Assembly (NCBI GenBank): GCA_002696035.1
Contig: NZQV01000010.1
Coordinates: 558,001 to 622,000 of the forward strand
Direction: 5' to 3'
From: Balneola sp.
GTDB lineage: Bacteria > Bacteroidota > Rhodothermia > Balneolales > Balneolaceae
DNA: 64,000 nucleotides
Both the position numbers and the translations under genes were made by a program. This document shows, piece by piece, positions 25,455 through 62,320 of the stretch. Positions within the stretch are counted from its first letter, which is position 1; each line of letters starts with the position of its first letter. The notes beneath the pieces were generated by a model that saw nothing but the letters and a program-made list of their open reading frames with translations, made no database searches and was not told the origin of the DNA.

Positions 25455-25455
25455 C

Positions 25456-26001: not shown

Positions 26002-26003
26002 TC

Positions 26004-26861
26004 ATGAGAATCTTCATTTCTTTTGGGTTGATCATGTTAGTTGCAACTTCCAGCTTGTATGGGCAGATGGAACGTACCAGAGCCGTTCAAGACGGACCGG
26101 TGGAGGACATATTCCTGGCGGGAAGTATTGCAGGTTTAAGTACGGTTACAGCCCTTCCTGCTAAAAATCTGAATACCATGGTGATGCATAACTTTGGTCT
26201 GGTATCAGGCGGGATTGATGAATTTTTCGGGCTTGACGGAGGAGCTGCGGTTCGGCTTGGAATAGATTATGGAATTACCGACCGGCTGGATATCGGGATC
26301 GGACGAACAAGCCTCGAAAACATGGTAGATCTTCGGGTAAAATATGTCCTTCTCCAGCAACTTCGTTCAGATGATATTCCCATTCAAATTGCCCTAAAAG
26401 GTGGTGTGGGTATAGCCACTCAGAAAGAAAGGCGCTTTGATTATTCCTTTACAGAACGGCTCAATTATTTGGCCTCAGTTCTGATAGCACGGAAGTTTTC
26501 TGACCAATTCAGCCTTCAGGTTTCTCCTATGATCTCCCATCAAAATACGGTAGTAAAAGAGCTGCCAAATGAATCTTTGCATAATACGTTATTCGGGATT
26601 GGCTTGGCAGGTCGGTATAAATTGAATGCCCGAAATGCCGTGGGGTTTGAGTTTTTACCCGTTATAGGTCCTAGAAACACGAATACAAAAGATCATGTCG
26701 CCATCTCTTACGAAATTGATACCGGCGGACATGTATTTCAGATCTTTTTTATGACTGGAAGATGGTTTACCGAACAGCATTTGTTATCCAGGACAAACGA
26801 TGATTTTTCAGCCATGGATTTCCGGCTTGGATTTAACATTAACAGGTTCTTTGGTCTTTAA
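26004..26861 (+). CDS. DUF5777-type outer-membrane barrel protein
   Basis: A 285-residue protein with signal peptide MRIFISFGLIMLVATSSLYGQ and a barrel-like body of alternating strands; FLAGSIAGLSTVTALPAKNLNTMVMHNFG, GLDGGAAVRLGIDYGITDRLDIGIGRT and MTGRWFTEQHL resemble the DUF5777 family, which is regularly found beside YceI and cytochrome c genes in Bacteroidetes (from memory). The protein ends in NINRFFGL. ATG at 26004 is preferred to TTG at 25998: GGAGG at 25989-25993 is 10 bases away from the ATG but only 4 from the TTG. Function unknown; probably an outer-membrane partner of the cytochromes. Confidence 0.75.
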   Translation: MRIFISFGLIMLVATSSLYGQMERTRAVQDGPVEDIFLAGSIAGLSTVTALPAKNLNTMVMHNFGLVSGGIDEFFGLDGGAAVRLGIDYGITDRLDIGIGRTSLENMVDLRVKYVLLQQLRSDDIPIQIALKGGVGIATQKERRFDYSFTERLNYLASVLIARKFSDQFSLQVSPMISHQNTVVKELPNESLHNTLFGIGLAGRYKLNARNAVGFEFLPVIGPRNTNTKDHVAISYEIDTGGHVFQIFFMTGRWFTEQHLLSRTNDDFSAMDFRLGFNINRFFGL

Positions 26862-26879
26862 TCTAAAACAGGAGTTATT

Positions 26880-27542
26880 ATGAAAACATATGCTACTATC
26901 AGTTTATTTTTGTTTGTGGGATGCTTCATGTCAGTACAGGCACAAGTCGACTATGAAGAAGATATTCAACCAATCTTTGATCAGCATTGCACTTCCTGTC
27001 ATGGAAGTAACAGCGGCGTTACGCTTAGCAGCTATGATGCGGTCATGAACAGTGTTGGAAGTCAATACGGAACAAACATTGTTGAGCCGGGTGAACCTGA
27101 TGAAAGTCCTTTGGTCGATAAGATCGAGCCAAACCCTGAGAACGGAGCCAGAATGCCTCAAAATGCTTCCCCCCTATCTGATGAAGAAATTCAGCTTATC
27201 AGAACTTGGATAGCGGAAGGTGCAAATGAAATGGCTGTTTCTACGGAGCAGTTTACCGGTGTACCAAAGGGCTTCGAAATGATCGGGAATTACCCTAATC
27301 CCTTTAATCCTCAAACCGTGATCACCTTTTCCTCCCCTGAAAAAGCCAACTACAGTGTTGATATCTATAACTCGGCCGGCATGTTGGTTACGGAGCTTTC
27401 AGGAATTACCAATACACCCCAAACCTTTGTAGATGTGGAGATGAATGGACTTCCTACCGGTATCTATCTGTACAGAGTTAAGATCAAGCTGGGTTCATCT
27501 GCTTTTTACCTGGAAACTCAGAAAATGACTTTAACCAAATAA
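26880..27542 (+). CDS. Secreted c-type cytochrome-like protein with type IX secretion sorting domain
   Basis: A 220-residue protein with signal peptide (1-21), a PSCyt1-like domain carrying Cys37-TS-Cys40-His41 (a canonical CXXCH) and RMPQ with Met92, and a C-terminal T9SS type A sorting domain from about 133 (IGNYPNPFNPQTVITF, VDIYNSAGMLVTEL, GLPTGIYLYRVKI). It should cross the outer membrane by the Por/type IX system and be held at the surface. The first 115 residues match the lipoprotein at 25044 almost block for block, so one is a duplicate with altered localisation. Last gene of the unit; converges with the TM2 gene. Confidence 0.85.
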   Translation: MKTYATISLFLFVGCFMSVQAQVDYEEDIQPIFDQHCTSCHGSNSGVTLSSYDAVMNSVGSQYGTNIVEPGEPDESPLVDKIEPNPENGARMPQNASPLSDEEIQLIRTWIAEGANEMAVSTEQFTGVPKGFEMIGNYPNPFNPQTVITFSSPEKANYSVDIYNSAGMLVTELSGITNTPQTFVDVEMNGLPTGIYLYRVKIKLGSSAFYLETQKMTLTK

Positions 27543-28223: not shown

Positions 28224-31200
28224 TTACCTCTTTCTTCTATTTAGGGAACGAGGGAAATAATGCGATATCGTGAAAAATATTCTGTTAGACCTATACACGC
28301 TACTTGTTGAGATCTCTGTGCCTACACTGATCTGCCAGAAGTTTCGAAATTTATGTTCCAGCTGAACACGTCCGGTTGCAAAAAATCCATCTCTTCGTTC
28401 ATGCTTACCTAAAATCTCAGCCGTAAGCTGGGTTCGGTAATCGAAGGTATTAGGTTTTCTGAATTGAAGATCGAGTCCTATGCCCTGAGAAAAATATTGA
28501 TCCGGGGTATAGTATGGTATTCCGGTGAGGTAATTTTCCGTGGCATCCGAATACCCAATTTCAGCAAGGGGACGGATTTTCCAGTTCGATTCCATCAGAT
28601 CCAGGTACAAACGCCCAAAACTTCCATACCTGAGAACATCGTTGGTATAGTATTTCCCATTCGCGGAAATGGTAGTAAGCACATTGCCCTTCATCCAATA
28701 ATCTTGACGATAGAGCTGTAATTGGGCCTGATAGTAATCGTTCTGAATGGATGAAGAGGTGAGTTCTGAGCCTCCCGTTAGCTGCAGAGAGGTGAATACT
28801 GAGTCTCTGCTTAAGCTTACTGAGATCAACCCTTCCGGAATGAAATCTTCCTGTCCAAAAAGTACGGATGAGCCCGCCCGGAATTCCAGCTGCTGGTTCT
28901 CGGAGCGATGGGTATACTCGTATCCTAATCCCTGGTATTGCAAGGTTTCATTGGTTTGAGGATTATCGTCTGCAAACACCAAGTATTCTGTTTTCAGTAA
29001 ATGAGTATTACGGAGCCGATTTCCAAATTGTACCGAAATTCCTCCACGGGCAAAGGTATTATTGAAGTTATCATCACGATATTCTCCAAAAACCTGCCCT
29101 CTTATGCCTTCATTTTCTCGGTATTGTCTCTGCAGACCGTCAACCTGATCATCATCAAAGAATTCAGGGTATTGGTAGAAAAAGTCTTTTTTCTGGGGAT
29201 AGCTAAGGAAGCCGATCTCATTTCTTAAAAGAGTATCTGCTGCAAAACCTTGTTCCTCTTCTTGCTGAAATAAAGGGTATAAGATCCGATAGGCTTCGTC
29301 TGTAAATCCCTGATAGAATAGATTAGTGCCCACAAAAGAGCGAATCTGAGCGTTATCCGTATTATTAGCCAGATAGTCCAAAGCTTTTGCTTTATAAAGG
29401 GCATCCAGGTTAAGTTGAGAGATCCAGAATAATTCCAGGCGACGATCGAAACTGGGTGCGTTACCTGCCCAGAACAAAGCTTGAGCATAATTATTGGCGT
29501 TAAAGCCGTACATCAGTGCAATGTTGGATGCAAATGGTGTTAACTGATCATAGGCCTGTGTCGGAAATTCTTCCACCAAAGCCAGTGTACTGTCTGGACT
29601 TTCGTAATAGATGGACCGCTGTATAGTGTATGCATAAAGAGAATCTGTTTGAGGCCGCATATTCAATAATTCTCGCAAGTTCTCCTTCATCTCGGGCCAA
29701 TTCTCCTGAGATTCAATAGATCTGGTATAATTCAACAACAACACATAATCATTCGGCGCAAGTTTAAGTTCACGTTGTCGCCATCGCCGTTCAAAGTTTT
29801 CTCCAAAAAGCCCCAGTCGCTTTACAGCCAGATTTTTTAGATCAATTACTTTCTGGCTTTGATATACTTCCCATAATTTTTCCAGAAATAACTCAGCTCT
29901 TCCCTGCAATCCTTCCCAGCCATAATAAGTTATCAGCCTCGAAGTGTCTTCTTGTGCCCAGTTTTCATTTTCCAGCAAACGATTCTCTAAAATTGTGATG
30001 GCTCGTTCCATCATCCCAAACTCTGTACTTAAAGAGATTACTTGTTCCTCAGCAGATCTGCTATTCGGGTTTCTACGCCAAGCCCTTAGCGCATCTTCAA
30101 GCCGCGTATCTCTCCAGTCCTCTTCCGTGATCTGTTGCAACTGGGCTGATTGAAGATAATTTTGATATCGTTGCTTAACATCCGCTGCCAGGCTGTTTAG
30201 AAATTGAGGATCATATTGAAGTGAAGGATCAATATTCGGCACAAAAAAGGTCGGCTTATCCGTCTTTATTTGGTATAAAAACCCATTCCAGAGATTAGAT
30301 CTTTCGGTTTCAATTTGTTGAGCCTTAAGAACCTCTTCTACATCATTAGCGTGTTCCTGTGGCACATACAAAAACCAGCTGCGTTCGCCATTTTCAACAT
30401 TCGGGGCATAAGCAGAGCGATACCCGGATCGAATTAATAAATTATTGCCACGGGTCTCATACCTCGTCAAACTTTGTCGCCAATCCTGGGTTATTCTGGC
30501 TCCATCTGTAGCAGAAACAAAATTGTTTTGCGGAAAATGATAAAGAGTGTGCTTAATTCTCTGACTTAATAAATCATAAAGCCCATACCCATATTCGTCT
30601 GAGTTTTGCCATCCCAATCCCAATGGATTTCTACTACTGAAATCGTCTTCATCGCGCTGTACAACTTGAAATACATCATCAGGATGCACAAAATGTGTCC
30701 AAATACCTGTAAGCAGCTGCATCCCTTTTTGATTGAAAAGCGAATTGGTATCCATATTAAACCCGCTTGTGATCCTTGGGTAGTTAAAAATATGAGCCGG
30801 CACATAGGGATCCGGATCAAACTCACGCCCGCCTCCATCTTCCACCTCACCCAGATATAATGAGCTCATATACTTTATGCTGGGCATACCTCTGATTACG
30901 GCTTCAAGTCCAGTAGAATCAATGTTATTGGTTGGGGGTACATAATTAGTTGGAAGTTGACCGAGATTATCTACCTGCCAGCGTTTACGAGCCGCTTGCA
31001 GCGCAGAGATCATGAAATTGATGTTATCCCAGTCTTCCATCCATAATGAAAAGTGATTGTATCCGTGAAATGCCAGCTCATGGCGTGAATCCCGGATATC
31101 TTTGGCCAGAAAGATACTGCCGTCTACAATATTCTCGTTAAAAACTACCGCCCCCTGTCGCCACTCCTGAAAATCAAATGGGGGTACCACATTGGCGTTA

Positions 31201-32147
31201 TAATTAAAGGCTACCATTGCCGCATAATCTATTGAAAATGAATCTGCCAAGGCTTTCATATCGGGCCACCAGATCTTTGTAACAAAATTGGCATGCGTTA
31301 CATTGTATTCCTCATCTATCGGGGGAAGCTTTTCGTTGTATAAGGGAGCAGGAAAATCATCCAGGAAAATGGTGCTAACGTTGGCAACTTGATAAGGGAC
31401 AGAGGCTAAACCGCGGAGTATGGCTGAAAACAAAATTCCACGGTAGATCTTCCCTTCAACCACAAAACTGTTTACGGTAATAACTTCACCCAGCCCCAGA
31501 CTTCTGGAGGTTATAAAAGGTTGTTCGGTATCGGTAGCGGTTCCTGCAAGTGTTGCTACATTATTAGTAAAATCAGTTGACTGAACTCCATAATGTGGCT
31601 GTAATCCGGGGAGATCAAAGTCTTTATTTTTCATGCCAGGAAAACCTTCCTCAAATAAATGAAACCCTTTATTTAGTGAATCGAGTTCTAATTCGGCATC
31701 GGCGCGGAATCCTTGCATAAACCCAAGCCGAGGATCTAAAACAGGGCCTACAAATACAATAGAGCCGCCACGGGAGGCAAACTCAACCATTCGCTCAAGT
31801 TCAAGATCAGAGAGTTCTGCCACACTCTGAGTTGTTACGACCAGACTTTTTACACTTTTGGGGATATTCAACTCTCTGGATATGATACCGAGATCGATAG
31901 TGAGGTAAGGGATCTTTGCGTAATCCAGTGCACGCACAACCTGGTTTGCAGCACCGGGACTAAACTCCTCACTCTGATTCTTCAGTATCAATACCATGTG
32001 ATCAGAAGAAATTTCGACTAAAGATGGTGCACCATTTTCATCCTGAGTACACGCACCAATCAGAAAAAGCAAAGCAAGCAGAACAATTAGCCCAACGCCC
32101 GACTTGTGTCTAAAAAATAAACTATTATTTATATAATCTTGCAGCAC
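28224..32147 (-). CDS. Lipoprotein fusing deacetylase-like, helical-repeat and outer-membrane barrel domains (Pel-like export/modification)
   Basis: A 1307-residue lipoprotein (lipobox LIGAC, Cys33). Residues about 45-255 are an alpha/beta domain with a Rossmann-like or gasdermin-unlike ThuA/glutaminase look (VLILKNQSEEFSPG, GGSIVFVGP). Residues about 256-640 resemble a polysaccharide deacetylase (DUF2194-like): FLDDFPAP with Asp263-Asp264, and HELAFHGYNH with His361-x3-His365, the metal-binding pattern of CE4/CE18 enzymes, then WTHFVHPDD at 483-491. Residues about 690-965 are helical repeats, and about 1010-1307 alternate as outer-membrane strands. PelA supplies deacetylation and PelB supplies TPR plus barrel in Pseudomonas; this one protein could do both. 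It overlaps the upstream 685-residue gene by 23 bases. Confidence 0.75.
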   Translation of the reverse strand: MLQDYINNSLFFRHKSGVGLIVLLALLFLIGACTQDENGAPSLVEISSDHMVLILKNQSEEFSPGAANQVVRALDYAKIPYLTIDLGIISRELNIPKSVKSLVVTTQSVAELSDLELERMVEFASRGGSIVFVGPVLDPRLGFMQGFRADAELELDSLNKGFHLFEEGFPGMKNKDFDLPGLQPHYGVQSTDFTNNVATLAGTATDTEQPFITSRSLGLGEVITVNSFVVEGKIYRGILFSAILRGLASVPYQVANVSTIFLDDFPAPLYNEKLPPIDEEYNVTHANFVTKIWWPDMKALADSFSIDYAAMVAFNYNANVVPPFDFQEWRQGAVVFNENIVDGSIFLAKDIRDSRHELAFHGYNHFSLWMEDWDNINFMISALQAARKRWQVDNLGQLPTNYVPPTNNIDSTGLEAVIRGMPSIKYMSSLYLGEVEDGGGREFDPDPYVPAHIFNYPRITSGFNMDTNSLFNQKGMQLLTGIWTHFVHPDDVFQVVQRDEDDFSSRNPLGLGWQNSDEYGYGLYDLLSQRIKHTLYHFPQNNFVSATDGARITQDWRQSLTRYETRGNNLLIRSGYRSAYAPNVENGERSWFLYVPQEHANDVEEVLKAQQIETERSNLWNGFLYQIKTDKPTFFVPNIDPSLQYDPQFLNSLAADVKQRYQNYLQSAQLQQITEEDWRDTRLEDALRAWRRNPNSRSAEEQVISLSTEFGMMERAITILENRLLENENWAQEDTSRLITYYGWEGLQGRAELFLEKLWEVYQSQKVIDLKNLAVKRLGLFGENFERRWRQRELKLAPNDYVLLLNYTRSIESQENWPEMKENLRELLNMRPQTDSLYAYTIQRSIYYESPDSTLALVEEFPTQAYDQLTPFASNIALMYGFNANNYAQALFWAGNAPSFDRRLELFWISQLNLDALYKAKALDYLANNTDNAQIRSFVGTNLFYQGFTDEAYRILYPLFQQEEEQGFAADTLLRNEIGFLSYPQKKDFFYQYPEFFDDDQVDGLQRQYRENEGIRGQVFGEYRDDNFNNTFARGGISVQFGNRLRNTHLLKTEYLVFADDNPQTNETLQYQGLGYEYTHRSENQQLEFRAGSSVLFGQEDFIPEGLISVSLSRDSVFTSLQLTGGSELTSSSIQNDYYQAQLQLYRQDYWMKGNVLTTISANGKYYTNDVLRYGSFGRLYLDLMESNWKIRPLAEIGYSDATENYLTGIPYYTPDQYFSQGIGLDLQFRKPNTFDYRTQLTAEILGKHERRDGFFATGRVQLEHKFRNFWQISVGTEISTSSVYRSNRIFFTISHYFPRSLNRRKR

Positions 32148-34182
32148 GTCCTTCTTCCTTTGGGTAGATATTATTCAAAACGCCTTCGATAGTAGATTCA
32201 CCTTCCCGGTTCACAATTTCATATATAGTGGTCTGATCCGTTTCATGGTACACCTCTAAAGTACGGCCCTCCATTTCCCGGAACGATGATAGCCATTGTT
32301 CAATATCGCGCATTGTACTTTGTGCATCGTATAAGATTCCCTGTTGAATAGATCCGTAAGGAGGCTTTTCAACAAAAATAAAAATACTGGCCGGCGGAAC
32401 TTCCTGAACTTCTGATCGCTGTTCGGCAGGAACTGTTAAATATTGCTGATATAGCGAGTCAATGGCTCCGTAATTATTCAAAAAGTATTGATAGGTCATA
32501 AAGTAATGACGGTTTACGGAGAGTTCACGATCGAGTTCAGGTCCCACAGTTGCGTAAGTATATGGCACACGTTCATTTACAATTTTGTAGTAGGCCTCGA
32601 AGAACCCGTTGGGTAATGTTTGAGGAAGTAATCGGTTGCTTTGGAATCCCCCTTGTACCATAAAAATGCTGAAAGCAAAAATGAGCACCAAAGCCGGTGA
32701 TAAATACGGGGTTATTTTTTGGAATGACTGAATGGCCCATTCCATGAACAAAAAGACCGAATACAGGGCCAAGCCTGCACATATACTGATAAATATCCCG
32801 TATACAATATTAAGCTGATCAGGATCTACCCAGATATACTGATATTCAAAATATGGCGTATAAATGTACAAGAGTAGAATAAAGAAAGAAATAAAAACGA
32901 CCTCATCAGATAATCTCTTTCTCTTCTGGATAAAAAAGCGGGCAATATAGGCGAAAAGCAAAAAGGCACCGCCAGTTAAGTAATATACACTCAGGTCTTG
33001 TATAGGTATTATCAGATTTGGGGCGAAGCTAAACACCTGTGTATCAAAAAGCTGATCCTGAAAAAAGGTGGAAATGGCAATGTCATGGATAAGGCAATAA
33101 CCAATAAACGGGCTGAGTGTCAGAATAAATACGCCAGTCAGATAGAGTGTGCTTTTGCCAAAATAGCGGAAGAACTTCCCTTTGGGAATAGAGATCAGTC
33201 CAAATATCATAAATGGAAGTAGTACCATCAGGAGAATGAATATATTGGTCATCCCCGTTGCAATCACGCCCATGAACACATAGAACCAAGGGGTATTTCC
33301 ACCGGAACGGATGTTTCTTAAGAACAATAGCATGGTTGGTAGCGCAAAACTCAGCGAGATGGCCAGCGATGACAGTTCGGTTTCAAGCTCCATAGAAACA
33401 GGAAGAAATAGTGATGGGAAGATCGCATATAACATAGTGCCGAATAGTGATGCTGCCGGATATTTTTGTTTTGTGATATCCTGGATCATCCAAAAAATGA
33501 TCACAGCCAGAAAGAAACTTATAAGCCCCCCAATGAGATGAAGGATCATTTCTGGACTGATCTGTGTGATAGTACTGAAGAAACTGATCAGCGAATGCAT
33601 GCCTTTTGGTTCCGGGAAACCATCAAAATATTGCTGAAGACTTAGACCTTTTACAGCACCCAGTTCAAAATACCACAAGCGGCTGAAAGGGGCCGAGTTT
33701 TGAATGGCCGGTGCAATTCTCAATCCCGATCCGGCAAGGGCGATCAAAACTGCAAGAATAGAATATGGCTTGGTGATCTTAAGTTTGGCCTTCCCTTTAA
33801 AGCGCTCCTTTATCTTTGAGAAGGTCAACTCTTTTATCTGCTCAATCTTGTTAATATGCGTGGCAACAAAACTATGCTCGGCCGTCGTAAAGATGTCGGT
33901 AATGTTCTCTCCCTCAAATGTCCTTTTGAAGAATTTCACCAAAAGAGGCAACGTCAGCAGAAAAAACAGAATGCTTATAAAATCATAGATATTTAATGTA
34001 ACCAGGATAAAACTACCCACCACCAGCAAGCCACCAAGGCTGATCCATGAAAAAACAATTCGGTCAATTCCTTTTTTAGTGCTGATGAAATTGAAAAACA
34101 AGGGCGTTATCAGCCCGAACACAAAAAAGAAACCCAGCAGCAATCTGAAAAGTGAGAATATGGCCTGAAGTTCGTAGTTCAT
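32125..34182 (-). CDS. Polytopic membrane protein of a Pel-like locus (function unknown)
   Basis: A 685-residue inner-membrane protein with about twelve hydrophobic helices in residues 5-530 and a soluble C-terminal domain of about 150 residues (YKIVNERVPYTYATVGPELDREL onward, ending EEGRAARLYK). Residues about 105-150 are a charged loop. The shape, with a periplasmic C-terminus, recalls GT-C glycosyltransferases and membrane-bound ligases, but I see no diagnostic motif. Its place in the operon is where pelE might be, yet PelE is a small two-helix TPR protein, so it is not a simple orthologue. It begins one base inside the stop of the GH114 gene (TAATG). Confidence 0.65.
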   Translation of the reverse strand: MNYELQAIFSLFRLLLGFFFVFGLITPLFFNFISTKKGIDRIVFSWISLGGLLVVGSFILVTLNIYDFISILFFLLTLPLLVKFFKRTFEGENITDIFTTAEHSFVATHINKIEQIKELTFSKIKERFKGKAKLKITKPYSILAVLIALAGSGLRIAPAIQNSAPFSRLWYFELGAVKGLSLQQYFDGFPEPKGMHSLISFFSTITQISPEMILHLIGGLISFFLAVIIFWMIQDITKQKYPAASLFGTMLYAIFPSLFLPVSMELETELSSLAISLSFALPTMLLFLRNIRSGGNTPWFYVFMGVIATGMTNIFILLMVLLPFMIFGLISIPKGKFFRYFGKSTLYLTGVFILTLSPFIGYCLIHDIAISTFFQDQLFDTQVFSFAPNLIIPIQDLSVYYLTGGAFLLFAYIARFFIQKRKRLSDEVVFISFFILLLYIYTPYFEYQYIWVDPDQLNIVYGIFISICAGLALYSVFLFMEWAIQSFQKITPYLSPALVLIFAFSIFMVQGGFQSNRLLPQTLPNGFFEAYYKIVNERVPYTYATVGPELDRELSVNRHYFMTYQYFLNNYGAIDSLYQQYLTVPAEQRSEVQEVPPASIFIFVEKPPYGSIQQGILYDAQSTMRDIEQWLSSFREMEGRTLEVYHETDQTTIYEIVNREGESTIEGVLNNIYPKEEGRAARLYK

Positions 34183-35033
34183 TAATCCCCCGCTGGAAAT
34201 TTATTGGCTACAGAATCCGCATTTTCCGGAAGGCGATTCAGTGCGATGTTACTTATAAAATAAGGTCGGCCAAGGGTATCAAGCCGGGATCTTATTTGTC
34301 TGAGATGAGCTTGAGAATCGGCGTAATCGAGCACCATAAATGGTACCCTGCTCTGCTCCACATATTCATTCAGAAAACCCAGGCGGGCTGTGTAAGCACT
34401 ATCTGAGCGAATAAGGTATTCCTGGTTTTCGAAGTCAAAATTTGAAGCAAGCGATTCTGTTAAGAAAGCATCCACATGATCTGCTGTTTCATTCAACAAA
34501 AATAATCCAGCATTCTGTATGATGATCTTATTGGGAAATTTAGCACCTATGGACTGAATCAATTCACCCATTGCGTCTTTCATGTCGCCCCGCTCTGTTT
34601 CTGGGGAAACAGCATCAATGGTATCGAGGAATAACCCATCTACTCCTTTGGCCATGATCTCAGGGAGCACCTGATTCAAGATCATATTGCGGACTTCTGG
34701 ATTTTCAACATCAATAAAAAAGCTATTCCAGACGTCATTCTTACCGCGAAATCCATACTCTTCCATGGCTCCAAAATACCACCGGTTTGGGTCAACTTCC
34801 CCAAGGGTTGCATATGCTATGATCTTAGTTCCGGTCTTCTTTAGCTCAAGGATCTCTTGCCGGGAATAAAAATCAGGCTCGATCACTACCAGCTTGTACG
34901 GTTCAACCTGGGCAGGCTGCAGTTTTGTATAGCAGATTCCGAATGGAGTCAGTGAATCAATGTCTGAAGTGTAATTAGGAGCACATCCCGTCAGAATAGC
35001 CATAAAAAGTAATCCGGTTGCAAAAAGCTTCAT
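34182..35033 (-). CDS. GH114/GH166-type endo-polygalactosaminidase lipoprotein (PelA hydrolase-like)
   Basis: A 283-residue lipoprotein (signal MKLFATGLLFMAILTGC, Cys17) with a TIM-barrel: LVVIEPDFYS (Glu52, Asp54), KIIAYATLGEVD (Glu79), FFIDVENPEVRNMIL, and GVDGLFLDTID (Asp137, Asp140). These are the marks of the GH114-related family that includes the hydrolase domain of PelA, which cuts the partly deacetylated GalNAc-rich Pel polymer. In Pseudomonas it is fused to the deacetylase; here it is a separate gene. Start at 35033 is preferred to 35060, since it gives a clean lipoprotein signal and overlaps the previous stop by one base. Confidence 0.8.
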   Translation of the reverse strand: MKLFATGLLFMAILTGCAPNYTSDIDSLTPFGICYTKLQPAQVEPYKLVVIEPDFYSRQEILELKKTGTKIIAYATLGEVDPNRWYFGAMEEYGFRGKNDVWNSFFIDVENPEVRNMILNQVLPEIMAKGVDGLFLDTIDAVSPETERGDMKDAMGELIQSIGAKFPNKIIIQNAGLFLLNETADHVDAFLTESLASNFDFENQEYLIRSDSAYTARLGFLNEYVEQSRVPFMVLDYADSQAHLRQIRSRLDTLGRPYFISNIALNRLPENADSVANKFPAGD

Positions 35034-36652
35034 TAATCCTTGGCACCTAGAGATGTACAATTATCCCAGCCCAGTGATTGTATAAGTTGTATAGCCGTTG
35101 GAATCAGTACCATATCAAACTGAACATCTGCCCTTTGCATTAATCCTTTTGATAAGGCTTCTAACCATTCATCTTCGCTTTTGGAATCGTCTTCTTTGTT
35201 CGACTCAATAAAATCTACTACATACTCAAAAAGTCCTACAATCTTGCCGGTCCATGGAATTTCTTCGGCTCCTAAACCAGCCGGAGTACCATTCCCGTTT
35301 ATCCACTCATGATGCGTTCGTATACCTTCCACAACATCTTTTTCTACTGCCAGGTTTGAGATCAATTCTGCCCCTATGATCGGGTGATCCATCTCTCCGC
35401 CAATTGTTTTGCCGGGTTCAACACTCATGGCTCCTACATAACCGATGTCATGTAATTTTGCAGTTTTCGTCAGGATTTCCATTTCATCATCTTCCAATCC
35501 AAACAACATGCCAAAGCGTTGCACAAAGGCCACCATTCGCGGGGTATGAAATTTCGTCTTAGTGCGCCTTTTTTCCATGCTTCTCAGCATTTGATAGTAG
35601 GTTTCCATCAGTTGGTCTGAGAAAGACCTGTTTTGGTTACGATAATCCAGCAACTTTGCAAAAGAGTCTCCCAAGCCTGCACCCTCTTCTTCGTAAGAAC
35701 TACTCTCAGAGGTTTTTTCAACTAAGACCATGCCACTGCAAGATTCTCCTTTATAGGAAATGGACTGAATCTCAACGCCCGCCAATTGAAGGAATTTCTT
35801 CCCGTCTTCAGAGAGTTTTTGCCCGGCTTCACTTTGCTCTAATAAATTATTAGTTCCCTCATCTTTTAAAAATGCCTCGGCCTCATCATTTAGTCCCACA
35901 GTGGTTATTACCTGATGCCCCTTTTGGGTGAACTCGAGGACTACTCCTACCTTCGATTTCTGTTTATGAACAAAATAACGAAGCAGAATTTCAGCAAGAC
36001 CAGAAGTGTTTAACTGTCCGCTTCCCAAGTCTGAGATCACAGCCTGAACCTTTTCCCTGTAATCTTTTTGTGGATTGTTCTCTGTTTCGTCAAGACCAAT
36101 AAGCCATGCTGAGAGGATGCGGCTTACAATAGATAGTTTTGGGGTGATCTGCTCCGGACTTTTAGTATAAGGTCCTACGCAATAAATACCCCAGAACTCA
36201 GCCTCTTTTGTAAATAGAGGGATATGTTCACACTGACCTATGGCATGAGATGAGATCCCCTGTTCCATAAAGATATCATCCATATCCATTTTCTTTTCAA
36301 GATTCTGGAGCTGATGTTCAAAGTTTCGGATGTATTCTTTTTCCTGAGGATTTTCTTCGTGAGGGTCTTTCTCATCAGTAGATTTATCCAGGATATTTTG
36401 CGTGAGGACATGTCGCCTGTCAAGGATCAGTTTTCCATCTTTTAGGATGTACACAAAATGAACGGGAGCGCGATACAGCAGATCAATCCAGTTTACAATT
36501 TCACTGAAAGTAGGTGGTTCTTTCCGAGAAAAATGTTCTGCCGAAAGCTCCCAGAATTCTAGTTGATCCTCAGTCCCAAATGTCTCCATAGAAAAAGCCT
36601 TGCTAAGCCTGTTGCCTACGGTATGTATATAGCTTTTTACGTCTTTGATCAT
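35033..36652 (-). CDS. GAF-like plus degenerate HD-GYP-type protein, candidate second-messenger sensor
   Basis: A 539-residue cytoplasmic protein. Residues about 55-185 look GAF-like, about 215-335 perhaps a second GAF, and 365-535 are an HD-GYP-like domain. His369, His401-Asp402 (HDIGY), His423 (HPIIG) and His447-His448 are kept. The diagnostic segment is NGNGTP at 452-457 instead of DGxGYP, HDIGK has Tyr for Lys, and the VADVFDAL block reads VGLFEYVVD with Glu476 in place of the metal Asp. Phosphodiesterase activity is therefore doubtful. It lies in the pelD position of the operon, with PelD being a GAF plus degenerate GGDEF receptor of c-di-GMP; this may be its substitute. It overlaps the GH114 gene by one base. 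Confidence 0.75.
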   Translation of the reverse strand: MIKDVKSYIHTVGNRLSKAFSMETFGTEDQLEFWELSAEHFSRKEPPTFSEIVNWIDLLYRAPVHFVYILKDGKLILDRRHVLTQNILDKSTDEKDPHEENPQEKEYIRNFEHQLQNLEKKMDMDDIFMEQGISSHAIGQCEHIPLFTKEAEFWGIYCVGPYTKSPEQITPKLSIVSRILSAWLIGLDETENNPQKDYREKVQAVISDLGSGQLNTSGLAEILLRYFVHKQKSKVGVVLEFTQKGHQVITTVGLNDEAEAFLKDEGTNNLLEQSEAGQKLSEDGKKFLQLAGVEIQSISYKGESCSGMVLVEKTSESSSYEEEGAGLGDSFAKLLDYRNQNRSFSDQLMETYYQMLRSMEKRRTKTKFHTPRMVAFVQRFGMLFGLEDDEMEILTKTAKLHDIGYVGAMSVEPGKTIGGEMDHPIIGAELISNLAVEKDVVEGIRTHHEWINGNGTPAGLGAEEIPWTGKIVGLFEYVVDFIESNKEDDSKSEDEWLEALSKGLMQRADVQFDMVLIPTAIQLIQSLGWDNCTSLGAKD

Positions 36653-36661
36653 ATTGAGCTC

Positions 36662-38290
36662 CTAAAATGCAGAGTAATAAAAGTAATCCAAATGTTTAAA
36701 AAATCTTTTTGCCAGAATTGCGGTTGTTACAGCAAATACAACGGAACCGGCAATGAGGCCTATAACAGCATACTCTAATCCAAAAATTCGGCTACATAAG
36801 AAGCCGGTTACAAAGTTAACAAATAATGACCCTGCCATAGCGTACATCACTAATTCGGGGCGGTTCAGCGTGAAAAAGAACAGGCTATTCAGTAAACCGT
36901 ATATCAAAAACAGATAGCCGATACTTGCCAGCCAGAATACTCTGAATGTCATTGGGTTCTCAAAAAAATCAGCTATTTCCGGAACCTGATTTTCAAAAAC
37001 CCTCAAACTTAGCACTCCATAATATGTAACTAAAATGGAGATTATACCTACAAATAACAGTAATAATACCTGCTTAACATAAAAACGCCTGAAAAATTTG
37101 TTAAAGAATTTAATCTTGGAAACAAAAGCAGCTTTTTGAGCCGGTATCAGGTATCGGGAAAAGGATTGAATACTGAATTCCAACATCGCGATGGTAATGA
37201 CCAATGTAATAAGAGCCCAATCCATACCCAGTTCATATGGTGTGTTGAACCAGATGATGTACTCAGGGGGCGGCGGCCCGGCAGACCAAGCCAGCAATCT
37301 ATCCATGAATAAAAAAGTGAAATAGCAGAAGCCATATATAAAATATCGGTAGACGTTGTAATAGGTAACTTCTGTTTCGGGTAGCGACTGTTTGAACAAC
37401 TCTTGTCGCAGACTATGGATTTTAAGGCGATAATATATGTACGCGTAAACTGTCATAATAAGCGTACCGACTAAAATACCAAGCCACTGGGATATATAGA
37501 TCCCGAAGCCGGCAAAATCCATCCCAAAAATAACGACTGCAGTCCCTGCAAGAATCCCAAACAAGATCATGGTGCGTTGTTCTGTGGCAAAGAGTACAGC
37601 TGCCACTAAAAGCAGCAGAGAGATCAACACAAAATAGATCATGGATAAGATCATGAGCTGCTGCGGATAAAATGGCAAGATCAGGTTCAACCCAAAAATA
37701 AGCAGTGCTGAAATGAATACTACCGGTATGGCCAGCTTCATGACCGAGAGAGAGGCTTTGGCTGCCAGATAGTAATTGCTCTCCCCTTTGTACTTTGAGA
37801 CCAGACGCCCAAGCGTTTGAATGAAACCACCTGTAATTATAAACGAGAGAATAGTGCCGAGTGCCACCACTGTAGCCTGGGCTTCATTAAAGTCGAACCA
37901 GGCCCATAATGCATACTCAAAGATCAAAATAGCTACGATCTGGGAAAGCATGGGCAATGAAAACACCATCCCCTGGGAATAGTATTTGAGGAAATTTTTG
38001 AGTGTCAGAAAAAAGCCGCCGAAGTTAAAATCATCGTGAATATCTTCGTCTTCACCTTCATTGATCTTCTTCTTGATCCTGTTAAAAACCACATCTGCCA
38101 GGTCAAATACTGAATCAAATCCATAGTCTGTTTTGGCATCTACATCCCGGACTCCCAGCGACTCGATGGTTGCGGCAACCGCCCATTTGCTTATCGGGTT
38201 ACCAACCAATTCGTGCACAGATTCCGTGATGACGTCTACGGCTTCAGCGTGGTCAAGTTCTGTGGTATTCAGCTCTATCTCATCCGACAT
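36662..38290 (-). CDS. pelG: PelG-type exopolysaccharide membrane transporter
   Basis: A 542-residue protein with about twelve membrane helices in the MOP-flippase (Wzx-like) fold after a cytoplasmic N-terminus of about 100 residues. The length and GYLFLIYGLLNSLFFFTLNRPELVM, together with the neighbouring PelF, match PelG, which works with PelF to move the polymer across the inner membrane. The start is set at 38290 (MSDEIELNT) rather than 38317, because GAGGAGG lies 8 bases upstream of it; the ORF overlaps pelF by 11 bases. The family in Pseudomonas is 456 residues, and this one is longer owing to its N-terminal domain. Confidence 0.8.
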   Translation of the reverse strand: MSDEIELNTTELDHAEAVDVITESVHELVGNPISKWAVAATIESLGVRDVDAKTDYGFDSVFDLADVVFNRIKKKINEGEDEDIHDDFNFGGFFLTLKNFLKYYSQGMVFSLPMLSQIVAILIFEYALWAWFDFNEAQATVVALGTILSFIITGGFIQTLGRLVSKYKGESNYYLAAKASLSVMKLAIPVVFISALLIFGLNLILPFYPQQLMILSMIYFVLISLLLLVAAVLFATEQRTMILFGILAGTAVVIFGMDFAGFGIYISQWLGILVGTLIMTVYAYIYYRLKIHSLRQELFKQSLPETEVTYYNVYRYFIYGFCYFTFLFMDRLLAWSAGPPPPEYIIWFNTPYELGMDWALITLVITIAMLEFSIQSFSRYLIPAQKAAFVSKIKFFNKFFRRFYVKQVLLLLFVGIISILVTYYGVLSLRVFENQVPEIADFFENPMTFRVFWLASIGYLFLIYGLLNSLFFFTLNRPELVMYAMAGSLFVNFVTGFLCSRIFGLEYAVIGLIAGSVVFAVTTAILAKRFFKHLDYFYYSAF

Positions 38291-39872
38291 GTGCCGCCTC
38301 CTCTTCAATGCTATCAAGGTGCATCAGCAGATTCTTAACGGATTCTACCTTAACATGCTCTTTAAAAGGTTTGCGAGGTTTTTCCTTGAGCCGGATGTAG
38401 GATTCGTAATAAGCATCAACAGAAATCTCGGTCTTGAAGGTCAATAGTACCCGTTCCCTGGCTTTTTGGCCATATTCCAGGCGAAGGTCATCATCCTTAA
38501 GTAACTTTATTACGCCGGCAGAAATATCTTTTGGGTCACGGGGTTTGCATAGAATTCCACAGCCTTCGAGCGCATCCCGGATTCCACCTACATCCGTTGC
38601 TACAACGGGCCGCCCACAACTCATGGATTCGATCACAGTGTAGGGAAATCCTTCGGAAATAGAGGTCAGTATCGAGATATCGCCCTCATTGAATATCTGG
38701 CTGGGCTGATCATGAAAACCTCCAAATTCGAAGGTACTCTCCAGATCAAGTTCCTTAATTAGTTCCCGGCATTTCTTGACGTAGGGTTTGTCCACTTCCA
38801 GACTGCCATATACTTTGAATTGTACTTCTGGTATCTCTTCCCGAACAAGGGCAGCCGTTCGTATCATGGTCTCAATATCCTTTAACGGAAAAACCTGAGC
38901 CACAGCAATTACGGTCGGTGTATTCTCGGTTTGACGTGGCTTTGGAGTAGGTTTAAAAAGATCTGTGTTGACTCCATTATAAATTGGTACGATGTTTTTT
39001 TCATCCGCTTCAAAGCGTTTTTCCCATTCTTTATTTGCCGTGGTAACAGGTGAGATCTGATCAGCTGTATAATAGACTGCACGACTCACCAATGTGGAAA
39101 GATCTACCAATAAGCGTTTGGAAAAGTACGGCATATCGGCCTGACCAATATTGATCAAGCGCTCCCTCATATATACGCCATGATCGGTTACGATACCGGG
39201 CGTACCATACTCATATTTAGCCGCTATGGAGCTTAATGCAGGAAAACCGGCCAATGTAGCATGGCACACATCAATATCCTTAGAAACATCTACGGCAATA
39301 GGCATAAGGAAATGATACAACCAGCGCATCCCAAAAGTCAGGTCAAAGACGCGGGGTTCTTCGCTTTTCTTTAGATCAGATTCCTCAAAATAAGTAAGAA
39401 CGGCGTGCTTGAATTCAACCCAAAGCAACGGCTGCCGCAGGGTCTGTTTAAAATCATAGTACTGAAAATATTTCCAGAGACCGTAAAGTACATCACTGAT
39501 CTTTTGGACATCGGTATAAGGATTAAGCAAGCACTGAATAAAATCCTCAAAAAGCGGTTTGAAATATTCTAGGGTAACCTGTTTTGTTGCTCTTGATTTC
39601 CGTTCAATTTGAAAGGAAAATGGCCGGTCATTATCGTAATAGTCCGACGGTTCGTCAACGCCCCAAAGCGGTACGTGTATTATTTTGGTGATGTTTTCTG
39701 GGAGACGGTAACGACTTTCTACATATGGATTCCCGGTAATGGCAAGTAGATGAAAATCCACTTTCTCTTTTAATTCGGTGCATAGGATGTGCGCCCAGGT
39801 AGACACACCGCCGCCGCTATAAGGATAAGATCCTTCGGTTTCGAAAAGAATTAAGGGTTTATCATCACTCAA
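38280..39872 (-). CDS. pelF: PelF-type GT4 glycosyltransferase
   Basis: Expected to use UDP-GalNAc or UDP-GlcNAc to polymerise the Pel backbone in the cytoplasm. The 530-residue protein has the N-terminal block ETEGSYPYSGGGVSTWAH (11-28), VDVCHATLAGFPALSSIAA, GIVTDHGVYMRER near 226-238, and the GT4 nucleotide-sugar site SEGFPYTVIESMSCGRPVVATDVGG with the E-x7-E pair Glu407-Glu415. Length and order of domains match the PelF family (DUF3492 N-terminus). A second, shorter GT4 gene precedes it with a 4-base overlap. Confidence 0.9.
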   Translation of the reverse strand: MSDDKPLILFETEGSYPYSGGGVSTWAHILCTELKEKVDFHLLAITGNPYVESRYRLPENITKIIHVPLWGVDEPSDYYDNDRPFSFQIERKSRATKQVTLEYFKPLFEDFIQCLLNPYTDVQKISDVLYGLWKYFQYYDFKQTLRQPLLWVEFKHAVLTYFEESDLKKSEEPRVFDLTFGMRWLYHFLMPIAVDVSKDIDVCHATLAGFPALSSIAAKYEYGTPGIVTDHGVYMRERLINIGQADMPYFSKRLLVDLSTLVSRAVYYTADQISPVTTANKEWEKRFEADEKNIVPIYNGVNTDLFKPTPKPRQTENTPTVIAVAQVFPLKDIETMIRTAALVREEIPEVQFKVYGSLEVDKPYVKKCRELIKELDLESTFEFGGFHDQPSQIFNEGDISILTSISEGFPYTVIESMSCGRPVVATDVGGIRDALEGCGILCKPRDPKDISAGVIKLLKDDDLRLEYGQKARERVLLTFKTEISVDAYYESYIRLKEKPRKPFKEHVKVESVKNLLMHLDSIEEEAAHVG

Positions 39873-41056
39873 AATGTAATGGTCTCCTCTTTCCGGATCA
39901 TTCGGTTCATTAATGCCCGGTATTCATCAAAAATTTCAATCCAGGTGTGCTTTTCTTTGATCAATTTCACTTTTTCATCTACCAGGTACTCAAAATCGAT
40001 TGGAGACGCCCAAAGTTCTGATATTCTTTTCACCTGTTCCTCTATGGACCGATCCTTTGAAAATGAAAGGCCAAAATCATCCGTAAAATCCCCTACCTGA
40101 TATCCAACAGGCAATGCCTTTTTGGCCAATGCTTCGAGCATCACAAGCGGTTGAGATTCATTATGGCTCGTTATGATCAGGATATCAAATTCGGATAAAT
40201 ATGCTTCAGCCGGTTCATTCCAGATCATTGTTACCTGTGGAAATTTTTTGGCTTTCTCAATGACCTTTTTCTGAAGTTCGGGCTCGTTTGCATCACATAA
40301 AAGCATGGTAAAATTTGCCTTCTGCCCAAGCTGATCGAAGGTATTTACATAATCAAAGAAAGCGAGTGGGTTCTTCATTTCAGCACACCGCCCCACCCAT
40401 CCTATCGTTGGGAGCTCTCCTCTTCTTTTTTGATCAACAAGCCAAGTTTCCGGAATCCCATTTGGGATATATTCCACTCTTTCTGCCCCCAGTTTATTCT
40501 GCTCGGGGATATTTACTTTTGAAACCGTAACGATTTGATCTGAGTGTTGATAGGTAAGCCGGGCTAATTCTTTAAAATGCTCAACCGTGTGCTTTTTTGC
40601 GATCTCTGTAGAAGGAATCTGATAGCCACATTCCAGCGCTGAAGCACCCATTTCAACTTCTTTCCAGTAAATGGCATGCTCTGTTAACAGTAAAGGGATC
40701 TGGTTGTCCTGCGATAGATGAGCCCCAAGGAAGCCGGCAAAACCGGTATTGGTCACATGAATAATATCAAAATTATGACCCGCAGGAAACGCCTGTTCCA
40801 TGTCCTCGTACCAGGCTTTTAGGTCTTTCTGCAGATCTGAAGAAAAAGCCGGCGGAGAAATACGGATAAAATCATTGATATTGGGTGTAAGAGGATACAG
40901 AGCTTTATCGGGATCGAGTCCCTGAAATTCATCCGTAGCAATTTGCAACACGGTAAATTCCATTTCTGGAAGGTGAAGAAGGTACTGATATACCCATTCA
41001 CTCACTCCTCCTCTATACCATGGATACGTCCCTTCAATGATCAAAAGTGCCTGCAT
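39869..41056 (-). CDS. Second GT4 glycosyltransferase of the Pel-like operon
   Basis: A 395-residue GT-B enzyme. The N-terminus EGTYPWYRGGVSEWVYQYL (8-26) echoes the PelF N-terminal block but the protein is shorter. LTEHAIYWKEVEMG near 124-137 resembles the GIVTDHGVYMRER block, and the C-terminal nucleotide-sugar motif HNESQPLVMLEAL carries the E-x7-E pair Glu300-Glu308. Sugar donor unknown. A four-base overlap (ATGA) joins it to pelF, so both are translated in equal amounts. It may be a duplicated PelF that adds a second sugar to the polymer. Confidence 0.8.
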   Translation of the reverse strand: MQALLIIEGTYPWYRGGVSEWVYQYLLHLPEMEFTVLQIATDEFQGLDPDKALYPLTPNINDFIRISPPAFSSDLQKDLKAWYEDMEQAFPAGHNFDIIHVTNTGFAGFLGAHLSQDNQIPLLLTEHAIYWKEVEMGASALECGYQIPSTEIAKKHTVEHFKELARLTYQHSDQIVTVSKVNIPEQNKLGAERVEYIPNGIPETWLVDQKRRGELPTIGWVGRCAEMKNPLAFFDYVNTFDQLGQKANFTMLLCDANEPELQKKVIEKAKKFPQVTMIWNEPAEAYLSEFDILIITSHNESQPLVMLEALAKKALPVGYQVGDFTDDFGLSFSKDRSIEEQVKRISELWASPIDFEYLVDEKVKLIKEKHTWIEIFDEYRALMNRMIRKEETITF

Positions 41057-41066
41057 AGCTCGATTT

Positions 41067-42002
41067 TCAGGTATTCGTCTTTTTGAACAACCGATATAAA
41101 ATAGATCCGGATTGCTTGATAAGTCTGGATATCAGTTCAAATTCTTCGGATGAAAACAGAACCGATCGCTTGATAATAAGTAAACCAAACATCGGTGCAT
41201 TTTCCGGAACGTTCATGTTGTTCATGAGCAGATCTCGTTCACTTACAGCAAAAAGAGGAACGCCTATTTCAGCAGCCAGACCATGTTCTTTTGAAAATTT
41301 AAGAAAGAAACCCAGTTCCTTATTGAAAACATGATTACTGAGATACGGCTTTTTACTATCTGTTAAGTGCGAAAAGGTCCCATTGTCTTCGATGGGTGAT
41401 TGATCATCCGCATTAAAAGGGTTCTCCGATTGGATGTAGAATAGATCTGCTGAATTGTTTTTAATCATCCACAATCCCGTAAAGGAAGGATTTACAATTT
41501 CTTTTATCCCTTTGCATAAAGTCTCAACCGTGTCTTCAAAAGAGCCTGATATCGCTGTTTCCATCAGTTCCATGACCAGTTTGTCTTTCTTTTTCACCTG
41601 ATCATCGTCCAGGTCATCAACACGGATATCGGTAACCAACTTCATCCGGATGATCTCACGGACTTTCTCCTTGTCGTTATTAAGGAGCTCTTTTTTAATG
41701 AAATCTGCGGCACCCAGGTCGTATGCTTTTTGCTCTTTTTCTACTGTGGGCAGGTTCGTCATAATGAGAACGGGAATCTTCTTCTTCTCCTCATCCAGCC
41801 GGATAGACTCCAAAAACTCTAAACCCGAAATACCGGGCATATGAATATCTGACAAGATCAGATTCACATTTTGTTCTGAAAGTATATCAATTGCTTGCTG
41901 TACGTCTTTGGCAGATAATACCTTGAACTCATCCTTGATGAGGTTTTTGATCATCAGATGAATGGGTTCATCATCATCAATTACTAAAATTTTATATTTC
42001 AT
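41067..42002 (-). CDS. Response regulator with C-terminal GAF domain
   Basis: A 311-residue protein. Residues 1-125 are a receiver domain with Asp9-Asp10-Asp11, the phosphoacceptor Asp52 in LILSDIHMPG, Thr82 and Lys103/104. Residues about 150-305 are GAF-like (LMETAISGSFEDTVETLCKGI, TGLWMIKNN, GLLIIKRSVLFSSEEFELI). There is no DNA-binding or enzymatic output domain, so it acts through a partner, perhaps the HD-GYP-like protein or the glycosyltransferases. It lies 6 bases after the histidine kinase gene and 10 bases before the GT4 gene. Confidence 0.85.
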   Translation of the reverse strand: MKYKILVIDDDEPIHLMIKNLIKDEFKVLSAKDVQQAIDILSEQNVNLILSDIHMPGISGLEFLESIRLDEEKKKIPVLIMTNLPTVEKEQKAYDLGAADFIKKELLNNDKEKVREIIRMKLVTDIRVDDLDDDQVKKKDKLVMELMETAISGSFEDTVETLCKGIKEIVNPSFTGLWMIKNNSADLFYIQSENPFNADDQSPIEDNGTFSHLTDSKKPYLSNHVFNKELGFFLKFSKEHGLAAEIGVPLFAVSERDLLMNNMNVPENAPMFGLLIIKRSVLFSSEEFELISRLIKQSGSILYRLFKKTNT

Positions 42003-42008
42003 GTCCTT

Positions 42009-43148
42009 CTATTTTTCCATTCTGTTTTGTGGAATTTTTAAATAAAATGTAGTCCCCTTGTCCAATTCAGATTCTACTGAAACATTGCCTCCATGCAATT
42101 CAACATAAAGCTGAACGATATCTAAACCAAGTCCGGTCCCTAACTCACCACTGGTTCCCTCTCTCGAATAATCATTGTTCTTGAATAGGTCGGGCTGCAT
42201 TTTTTCCGGAATTCCGATCCCGCTGTCTGTAACATTAATGTAAATTTGTGGTTGTTCAGAGGCTACTTCAACAACTACATTTCCTCCGGTAGGGGTAAAC
42301 TTCAAAGCATTTGAAACCAGATTATTCACTGCTATTTCAATTTTATTTTGATCAACTTCTGCGGTAAGGTCTTTAGGTGAAATTGAATAGTTAAGGTTTA
42401 TATTTTTCACGATCGCCTTTGCCTTATTCATGGCTATAACTCTTTCAATGATCGCTTTCACCGAAACGGTTTCGTAATCCAGTTCTTCGGAATGTGCTTT
42501 TTTTGATTCCCTGTCTAAAACTTCCCGTACCAAATTCAGTAAATTGGCGCCGCTTTCTTCGATCACAGAAAGCATCTGTTTGCGTTCCTCTTCAGTTACT
42601 TTATCAGAATCCTTAAGCAATTTCACCAACCCAATGATTCCGGTAAGCGGATTTTTAATATCATGGCTTACTGTTCTGACTAGGTCATCTTTTTTCTTGT
42701 TCAACCGGCTTAACTCAACTTCCCTTTCCCTTAGGATTGTAATACGCTGGTTCAGCTGCTTTTGTAAGAATCGAATCTGAAGGTGGGCATTAATTCGGGC
42801 AAGGGTTTCCTCTTTCTGAAAAGGTTTTGTGATGTAATCTACCCCGCCAACTTTAAATGCCTTCACTTTATCAACGGTATCAGTAAGGGAGCTTAATAAG
42901 ATGACCGGGATATCGCTTACTTCAGGAATCGATTTTAGCTTTTTTATAACGTCAAACCCGTTCATGTCAGGCATCATGATATCAAGCAAGATCAGGTCGG
43001 GCTCGTGCTTTTTTGCGGCTTCAATGGCATCTTTACCATTGGTTGCCTCTACATATCGAAACCCTGATTTATCTAATACCCGCGAAAGCAAATGGAGGTT
43101 TGCCTGAGTGTCATCAACAATTAAAATTAAACTATCTTGAGGCGTCAC
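42009..43148 (-). CDS. Hybrid receiver-histidine kinase
   Basis: A 379-residue cytoplasmic kinase. The N-terminal receiver (1-125) has Asp11-Asp12, Asp56 in LILLDIMMPDMNG and Lys108 (ITKPF). A coiled linker (125-155) precedes the HisKA domain with SHDIKNPLTG and phosphorylated His162. The HATPase domain carries the N box near VNNLVSNALKFTP, the G1 box VTDSGIGIPEKM and ELGTGLGLDIV. A receiver at the N-terminus of the kinase suggests control by another kinase or by the partner regulator. First gene of the Pel-like operon; probably controls it or its product. Confidence 0.9.
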   Translation of the reverse strand: MTPQDSLILIVDDTQANLHLLSRVLDKSGFRYVEATNGKDAIEAAKKHEPDLILLDIMMPDMNGFDVIKKLKSIPEVSDIPVILLSSLTDTVDKVKAFKVGGVDYITKPFQKEETLARINAHLQIRFLQKQLNQRITILREREVELSRLNKKKDDLVRTVSHDIKNPLTGIIGLVKLLKDSDKVTEEERKQMLSVIEESGANLLNLVREVLDRESKKAHSEELDYETVSVKAIIERVIAMNKAKAIVKNINLNYSISPKDLTAEVDQNKIEIAVNNLVSNALKFTPTGGNVVVEVASEQPQIYINVTDSGIGIPEKMQPDLFKNNDYSREGTSGELGTGLGLDIVQLYVELHGGNVSVESELDKGTTFYLKIPQNRMEK

Positions 43149-62295: not shown

Positions 62296-62320
62296 AATAC
62301 ATTTTTTACAGATCTTGCTG

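Follow-up and report, generated by a model that had tools for sequence, protein, structure and literature searches.

A probable divergent Pel-type operon in Balneolaceae with a predicted deacetylase-exporter fusion and an HD-GYP-derived protein in place of PelD

The window analyzed here is a stretch of 64,000 nucleotides (contig NZQV01000010.1, positions 558,001 to 622,000, of assembly GCA_002696035.1) from a genome of 3.97 Mb and 97% completeness deposited as Balneola sp., and its host is very probably a member of the genus Gracilimonas (Balneolaceae), a salt-tolerant marine bacterium. At positions 28224-43148 it carries nine tightly packed open reading frames (ORFs) on the minus strand that probably (at a rough estimate, 0.6) encode a divergent Pel-type system, which would make, trim, and export a Pel-like galactosamine chain, with the deacetylase and the exporter fused and PelD replaced. 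The Pel polysaccharide is known from Proteobacteria and Gram-positive bacteria and is usually tied to cyclic di-GMP (c-di-GMP) through PelD, a c-di-GMP receptor with a degenerate GGDEF domain. The locus appears to be a widespread and undescribed branch of the Pel systems, and no description of it in Balneolota was found in the openly accessible literature.

RESULTS

The PelF encoded in the operon is, as judged by its sequence, a true PelF. It scores 160 bits (8e-47) against the NCBIfam equivalog NF038011, for which the cut-off is 100, its E-x7-E motif (EGFPYTVIE) is intact, and in a maximum-likelihood tree the PelF proteins of this locus and its counterparts in other genomes form one group with 97/92 support. 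The sisters of this group are the PelF proteins of Deinococcus, Thermus, Streptomyces, and Kocuria, followed by proteobacterial and fusobacterial PelF. The profile score alone would also assign the name PelF to the second GT4 glycosyltransferase of the operon, GT4b, because at 106 bits it exceeds the same cut-off. GT4b matches DUF3492 (4.2e-33; Pfam) and has an intact E-x7-E motif (ESQPLVMLE), and in the tree, which is unrooted, the GT4b proteins of Balneolaceae, KSB1, Calditrichota, Kryptonia, and Ignavibacteriae stand apart from all PelF on a branch with 95/92 support. A first-pass annotation of the window, made without database searches, had recognized a PelF with good motifs and a second GT4 enzyme, and both identifications hold.

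The 551-amino-acid (aa) protein is likely a divergent PelG. The window protein itself has no match in Pfam, in NCBIfam, or in a direct search with PF16933 (PelG), and the earlier identification of a PelG with good motifs is sustained only by way of intermediates: 7 of 29 homologues match PF16933 (best 2e-9), none of the 29 matches any other Pfam family, and none matches NCBIfam. With PelF as the best NCBIfam match of the polymerase and PelG as the sole Pfam family matched among the flippase homologues, no better score to an unrelated GT4 or flippase family was found for either protein. A profile of a wide alignment could be aligned to six canonical PelGs over 408 columns (E 1.5e-5, probability 80%); an alignment restricted to Balneolaceae gave no hhalign link to a single canonical PelG. 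The AlphaFold model (pLDDT 87) matches MATE, WzxE, and MurJ of the MOP superfamily with VIA Z scores of 15-26. The likely start of the gene is an internal ATG near 38290, and the protein carries an extra N-terminal cytosolic domain (residues ~23-88) that is common to the membrane proteins following PelF in Deinococcus, Thermus, Streptomyces, and Kocuria, all of which are annotated as hypothetical.

For the trimming of the polymer, the operon encodes a putative deacetylase and a putative hydrolase. The N-terminal 495 residues of the 1307-aa protein match DUF2194 (3e-61; Pfam) and align with PDB entry 9ZAU, the PelADA of Bacillus cereus (1.5e-31), which founds family CE26, deacetylates alpha-1,4-linked N-acetylgalactosamine (GalNAc) oligomers, and is needed for Pel (PMC13254593). 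The PelADA residues D262/D263, H350/H354, P405, R458, H488, and D491 correspond to D263/D264, H361/H365, P405, R458, H488, and D491 in the window protein, and an alignment of 12 sequences from different phyla shows little or no variation at these catalytic residues. By homology, this part of the protein would be a PelADA-type de-N-acetylase. The hydrolase matches Glyco_hydro_114 (1.5e-13; Pfam), and its nearest solved structures are those of PelA (9CGY, 5TCB, and 5TSY; 5TCB at 8e-12), in agreement with the earlier reading of a GH114-type hydrolase like that of PelA. The catalytic glutamate, replaced in 5TSY, is aligned in this protein and invariant in Balneolaceae. The sequence contains a lipobox (LTGC), and the likely start is the ATG at 35033.

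The remainder of the 1307-aa protein probably contains a helical repeat region (~660-1010) and an outer-membrane beta-barrel (~1011-1307). This C-terminal part has no direct Pfam match, and a sequence search with its profile recovered no solved structure. In an Ignavibacteriae orthologue (L072), DUF2194 is followed in equal order by TPR_19 (2e-23) and a weak PgaA_barrel match. The alternating hydrophobicity of the last 297 residues is 0.22, compared with 0.07 for the protein's own repeat region, 0.17 for the PelB barrel, and a mean of 0.09 and maximum of 0.24 for 1000 shuffled sequences; since soluble PelF scores 0.18, this signal is weak evidence for a barrel. The protein had previously been described as a deacetylase-repeat-barrel lipoprotein; homology supports the deacetylase, whose PelADA type had gone unnoticed, and the repeats and barrel are supported indirectly, through the orthologue and the hydrophobicity pattern. 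We infer a fused deacetylase-exporter with a predicted porin. In Pseudomonas aeruginosa, the PelA deacetylase docks on TPRs 9-14 of PelB and is thereby activated (PMC12022489), and a fusion of the kind predicted here would make docking of the PelA-PelB type permanent.

PelD is absent from the operon, and an HD-GYP-derived protein stands in its place. This GAF-HD regulator, earlier termed GAF/HD-GYP-like, does have the HD domain (HD_5, 9.8e-10; Pfam) with its HD, HP, and HHE residues retained, but its GYP motif is degenerate and reads GTP. In all Balneolaceae sequences examined, GTP, GSP, or a similar triplet replaces GYP, and a few have lost an HHE histidine. Most of the more distant homologues retain GYP or GFP, and relatives in other phyla have clear GAF, HD_5/HD-GYP, and sometimes STAS domains. 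No profile link was found between the regulator and PelD, and a PelD profile search of Gracilimonas genomes found none, a weak result given that no control genome gave a match either. No GGDEF domain was found in 10 Gracilimonas genomes under conditions in which control genomes were positive, and none above the cut-off in 92 Balneolaceae genomes, which gave two sub-threshold matches; GGDEF was present in 11 of 11 locus-bearing genomes tested from other groups. GYP has thus been lost together with c-di-GMP synthesis although the gene persists, which suggests that the regulator responds to a new signal.

Two further signaling genes open the operon. The kinase contains Response_reg (1.9e-30), HisKA, and HATPase_c domains (Pfam), and the second protein contains Response_reg (1.5e-21; Pfam) and a GAF-like region read from its sequence only. 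Because Pfam revealed no DNA-binding output domain in these two proteins, control is probably post-translational. The idea that the operon has its own two-component control therefore stands in part: both genes recur in several genera of Balneolaceae, but others are without them, and neither protein shows a DNA-binding output domain; the kinase is absent from Fodinibius loci. In a KSB1 locus (L069:7635-11857), a protein read from its sequence as a GAF domain with a SpoIIE-type phosphatase as its C-terminal half lies beside a GAF-HD-STAS protein, a pair that suggests partner-switch control of the polysaccharide machine there.

A pattern-seeded scan that covered 84,980 species with one genome apiece recovered 49 loci of this kind, in Balneolota, other Bacteroidota, KSB1, Calditrichota, Ignavibacteriota, Kryptonia, Chloroflexota, Bdellovibrionota, a deltaproteobacterium, and Bacillota (including Sulfobacillus). 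Since many of the loci come from metagenome bins, single taxon assignments may be wrong, and locus counts do not represent independent events. The label "Bacteroidetes-type" given by the first-pass annotation is not supported: of 394 genomes sampled from Bacteroidota in the wide sense, no more than 26 are positive (11 of 172 genera), and the loci extend to many other groups. Among the 34 loci that span 18 kb or more, from approximately ten phylum-level groups, PelF and a protein homologous to the 685-aa membrane protein of the window accompany the PelG-like gene in all 34, an HD regulator in 32, and GH114 in 31; a canonical PelG occurs in none. The broader claim of a distinct, non-canonical Pel-like system is borne out by this recurring core, by a gene composition that differs from known loci, by the true PelF, and by the tie to PelG.

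The 685-aa protein, previously noted only as a 12-helix membrane protein, has no Pfam family; one member of its alignment matches DUF6541. Foldseek searches with the AlphaFold model (pLDDT 75) gave top ranks that are all GT-C enzymes, and VIA Z scores are ~16-21 for STT3, AglB, and PglB, the best of these at ~19-21, and 16-17 for DPY19, AftA, and ArnT. The predicted protein would thus adopt a GT-C glycosyltransferase fold, and its role is suggested by fold alone. The likeness to these enzymes extends over residues ~130-660 at ~10% identity; the 685-aa protein differs in its extra N-terminal helices and in lacking the WWDxG motif of GT66, which is absent from an 18-sequence alignment. Since ArnT, AftA, and DPY19 match too, a role cannot be assigned from the fold. 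The GT-C profile used in the survey was trained partly on nine of the surveyed loci; loci outside the training set also match (L074, E 3e-19; L075, E 4e-19), Bacillota loci often contain two such proteins, and no match was found in six canonical pel loci examined. A 716-aa Deinococcus protein considered as a GT-C homologue was rejected, as its comparison with the GT-C alignment failed and it proved to be an Agd3-type deacetylase. That a GT-C protein is always present suggests a relative of Pel whose synthesis involves an additional sugar step.

The ORF listing of the window confirms the nine same-direction genes, with the sizes and positions first reported (Table 1), and neighboring genes either overlap by 1-38 bases or are separated by at most 10. 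GT4b and PelF overlap by 4 bases (39869-39872), the GH114 and 685-aa protein genes share base 34182 (TAATG), and the junction between the GAF-HD and GH114 genes is also TAATG if GH114 uses the internal ATG. No spare ORF for PelC, PelD, or PelE exists inside the operon, in keeping with the earlier failure to see them, and no operon protein matches PelE in Pfam or NCBIfam. The operon contains no sugar nucleotide genes, and GalE is encoded on the same contig. Comparison of 20 neighborhoods showed that the nine genes recur with identical order and strand in other Balneolaceae of several genera, with proteins ~40-85% identical between genomes; the packing is therefore beyond chance. The PelG-like gene is present in 24 of 92 Balneolaceae genomes. 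Fodinibius-type loci lack, besides the kinase gene, sometimes also the REC-GAF or GAF-HD gene, and the deeper loci L048 and L049 retain only the genes for GT4b, PelF, the PelG-like flippase, GH114, the 685-aa protein, and the deacetylase. From this gene content, these six form the core, and the three signaling genes are add-ons.

Table 1. Features of the predicted Pel-type operon, in order of transcription (positions in the window)
Feature	Position	Strand	Basis
Hybrid histidine kinase, cytoplasmic, REC-HisKA-HATPase	42009..43148	-	Pfam; no transmembrane segment
REC protein with C-terminal GAF-like region	41067..42002	-	Response_reg; conserved position
GT4b, second GT4, PelF-related separate group	39869..41056	-	DUF3492, tree, motif
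PelF, GT4 polymerase (by sequence)	38280..39872	-	NCBIfam NF038011 equivalog, tree, motif
PelG-like MOP-superfamily flippase, 551 aa	36662..38317	-	Homologues, profile, predicted fold
GAF-like/HD-GYP-derived regulator	35033..36652	-	HD_5, motif alignments, homologues
GH114 lipoprotein, PelA-hydrolase type	34182..35060	-	Glyco_hydro_114, PelA structures, lipobox
685-aa multi-pass membrane protein, predicted GT-C fold	32125..34182	-	AlphaFold, Foldseek, VIA
1307-aa lipoprotein, N-terminal part, putative PelADA-type (DUF2194, CE26) de-N-acetylase	30465..32147	-	DUF2194, 9ZAU, catalytic residues
1307-aa lipoprotein, C-terminal repeat region and probable barrel	28224..30464	-	L072 orthologue, hydrophobicity

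Two genomes hold disrupted copies of these genes. In an uncultured Aliifodinibius/Fodinibius, a second, broken partial copy (L045:11774-15589, equal to L063:3308-7123) has fragments of PelF, the PelG-like flippase, and GT-C around an apparently intact GH114 and is a decaying tandem duplication. In a genome of the same genus as the window (G024; L030:11455-12318), GH114 is split into two ORFs and a TAG lies inside the PelG-like frame; these are perhaps pseudogenes or sequencing errors. Elsewhere in the window, a small cluster (25044-27542) encodes a YceI-like protein and proteins resembling planctomycete cytochromes, one of which carries a C-terminal signal for type IX secretion. The gene for a histidine kinase of 2149 aa (55846-62295), in which a very long series of PAS domains is joined by one GAF domain, overlaps a MASE11 kinase gene (62228-63691).

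DISCUSSION

Based on the families represented, we propose that PelF would polymerize GalNAc from UDP-GalNAc on the cytoplasmic side and that the PelG-like flippase would carry the chain out. The GT-C protein, going by its fold, would probably add or transfer a further lipid-carried sugar to the chain in the periplasm, and GT4b may either supply the precursor for GT-C or itself attach a second residue. Deacetylation of the alpha-1,4-GalNAc chain would fall to the PelADA-type domain, and the deacetylated chain would pass through the repeat region of the same polypeptide to its own outer-membrane barrel, the presumed porin, so that modification and export would be combined in one polypeptide replacing the PelA-PelB pair. 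The GH114 lipoprotein would cut chains for release or clearing. The GAF/HD-GYP-derived regulator would replace PelD, probably fed by the kinase and the REC-GAF protein, and in the Balneolaceae lineage it would be unable to answer c-di-GMP from a known GGDEF enzyme.

With the pelABCDEFG system of P. aeruginosa, the operon shares the PelF polymerase, a likely PelG-type MOP exporter, GH114, and a deacetylase that would work with a predicted TPR-barrel exporter. It differs in lacking PelC, PelD, and PelE, in dividing hydrolase and deacetylase between separate proteins, in a deacetylase of the Bacillus DUF2194/CE26 type fused to a predicted repeat-barrel part, and in the addition of GT-C, a second GT4, and the HD-GYP-derived regulator, with no GGDEF detected in the genus. 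Also related are the pelDEADAFG loci of B. cereus and Streptococcus and the pel locus of Cetobacterium, where DUF2194 occurs with a GAF protein, pelF, and pelG; here PelADA (DUF2194/CE26 checked for B. cereus and Cetobacterium), a separate GH114, PelF, and a likely PelG are all shared. In contrast to these, the window operon lacks PelD and PelE and adds GT-C and GT4b, and its PelADA is a lipoprotein that would continue into repeats and a probable barrel, features required in a cell with two membranes. The PelF loci of Deinococcus, Thermus, Streptomyces, and Kocuria plasmids share the sister PelF clade, the N-terminal domain of the hypothetical membrane protein, and a nearby GH114, but have no detected GT-C homologue and, in Deinococcus, an Agd3-type deacetylase rather than DUF2194. 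One such deacetylase, on a Deinococcus plasmid (L051:17964-20114), is of the CE18 type known from fungal galactosaminogalactan and carries CBM87, which suggests that there are bacterial galactosaminan loci with a fungal-type deacetylase.

Several points weigh against a Pel-type assignment. The analysis establishes gene content, conservation, homology with the catalytic residues, predicted folds, and the lack of detectable GGDEF proteins; the polymer is a prediction, and we infer its identity, the GT-C step, the fused export, and the independence from c-di-GMP. The DUF2194 domain has no profile match to PelA of the P. aeruginosa type, its tie being to the Bacillus enzyme, and DUF2194 was not detected in the Bacillota loci. 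No sequence or profile link joins the C-terminal part of the 1307-aa protein to PelB, so its porin function stays a prediction. The GT-C enzyme belongs to no Pel system described in the openly accessible literature, in which no pel locus with a GT-C gene was found, and the polymer may therefore not be plain Pel. Taken further, this last point leads to a hetero-polysaccharide containing GalNAc or galactosamine, in which the two GT4 enzymes and the GT-C protein would build a mixed-sugar repeat and the deacetylase and GH114 would act on its GalNAc part. Two conserved GT4 genes and a constant GT-C gene do exceed the needs of a homopolymer, and the KSB1 locus has an epimerase-like gene between its two GT4 genes. 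However, the CE26 and GH114 families are known to act on alpha-1,4-GalNAc chains and the window operon has no sugar nucleotide genes, and we consider a hetero-polysaccharide unlikely, if still the most serious competitor.

Oligosaccharyltransferases are the structures that the 685-aa protein matches best, and a MOP fold also suits flippases of lipid-linked substrates; the system could accordingly be a lipid-linked glycan pathway, in which the flippase would move a lipid-linked GalNAc chain, the GT-C protein would pass this chain on to a protein or lipid acceptor, and no exopolysaccharide would be set free. The missing GT66 motif and the matches to ArnT, AftA, and DPY19 detract from this, a fusion of deacetylase, repeats, and probable barrel together with a PelA-type hydrolase is better suited to an exported polymer, and the pathway seems improbable. 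Lastly, that c-di-GMP control persists through a non-GGDEF enzyme or through neighbors, with the HD protein as a phosphodiesterase, fits the mostly retained HD metal residues and the GGDEF genes of locus-bearing genomes from other groups, but is very hard to reconcile with the lack of above-cut-off GGDEF across Balneolaceae, the uniform replacement of GYP, and the HHE histidine lost in some.

Returning to the Pel-type reading, a wider formulation, which we advance tentatively and at somewhat less than even odds, is that these loci constitute a separate class of the Pel family in approximately ten phylum-level groups, in which PelF, an obligatory GT-C protein, and a divergent flippase that has an N-terminal domain of its own would together produce a galactosaminan that is decorated or of mixed composition; the regulator of Balneolaceae would have been freed from c-di-GMP, and their deacetylase and export channel would be one protein. 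Pel surveys may have overlooked this branch, because its flippases are mostly invisible to PelG profiles and the relatives in Deinococcus, Thermus, and Actinobacteria are annotated as hypothetical. The fusion of a deacetylase to a probable channel, if true, would lend natural support to the model of PelA-PelB coupling in Pseudomonas. Finally, the retention of a Pel-like operon in a genus with no detectable c-di-GMP synthase, and with an HD-GYP-derived regulator in the place of PelD, means that other switches for this type of polysaccharide system can be searched for directly.

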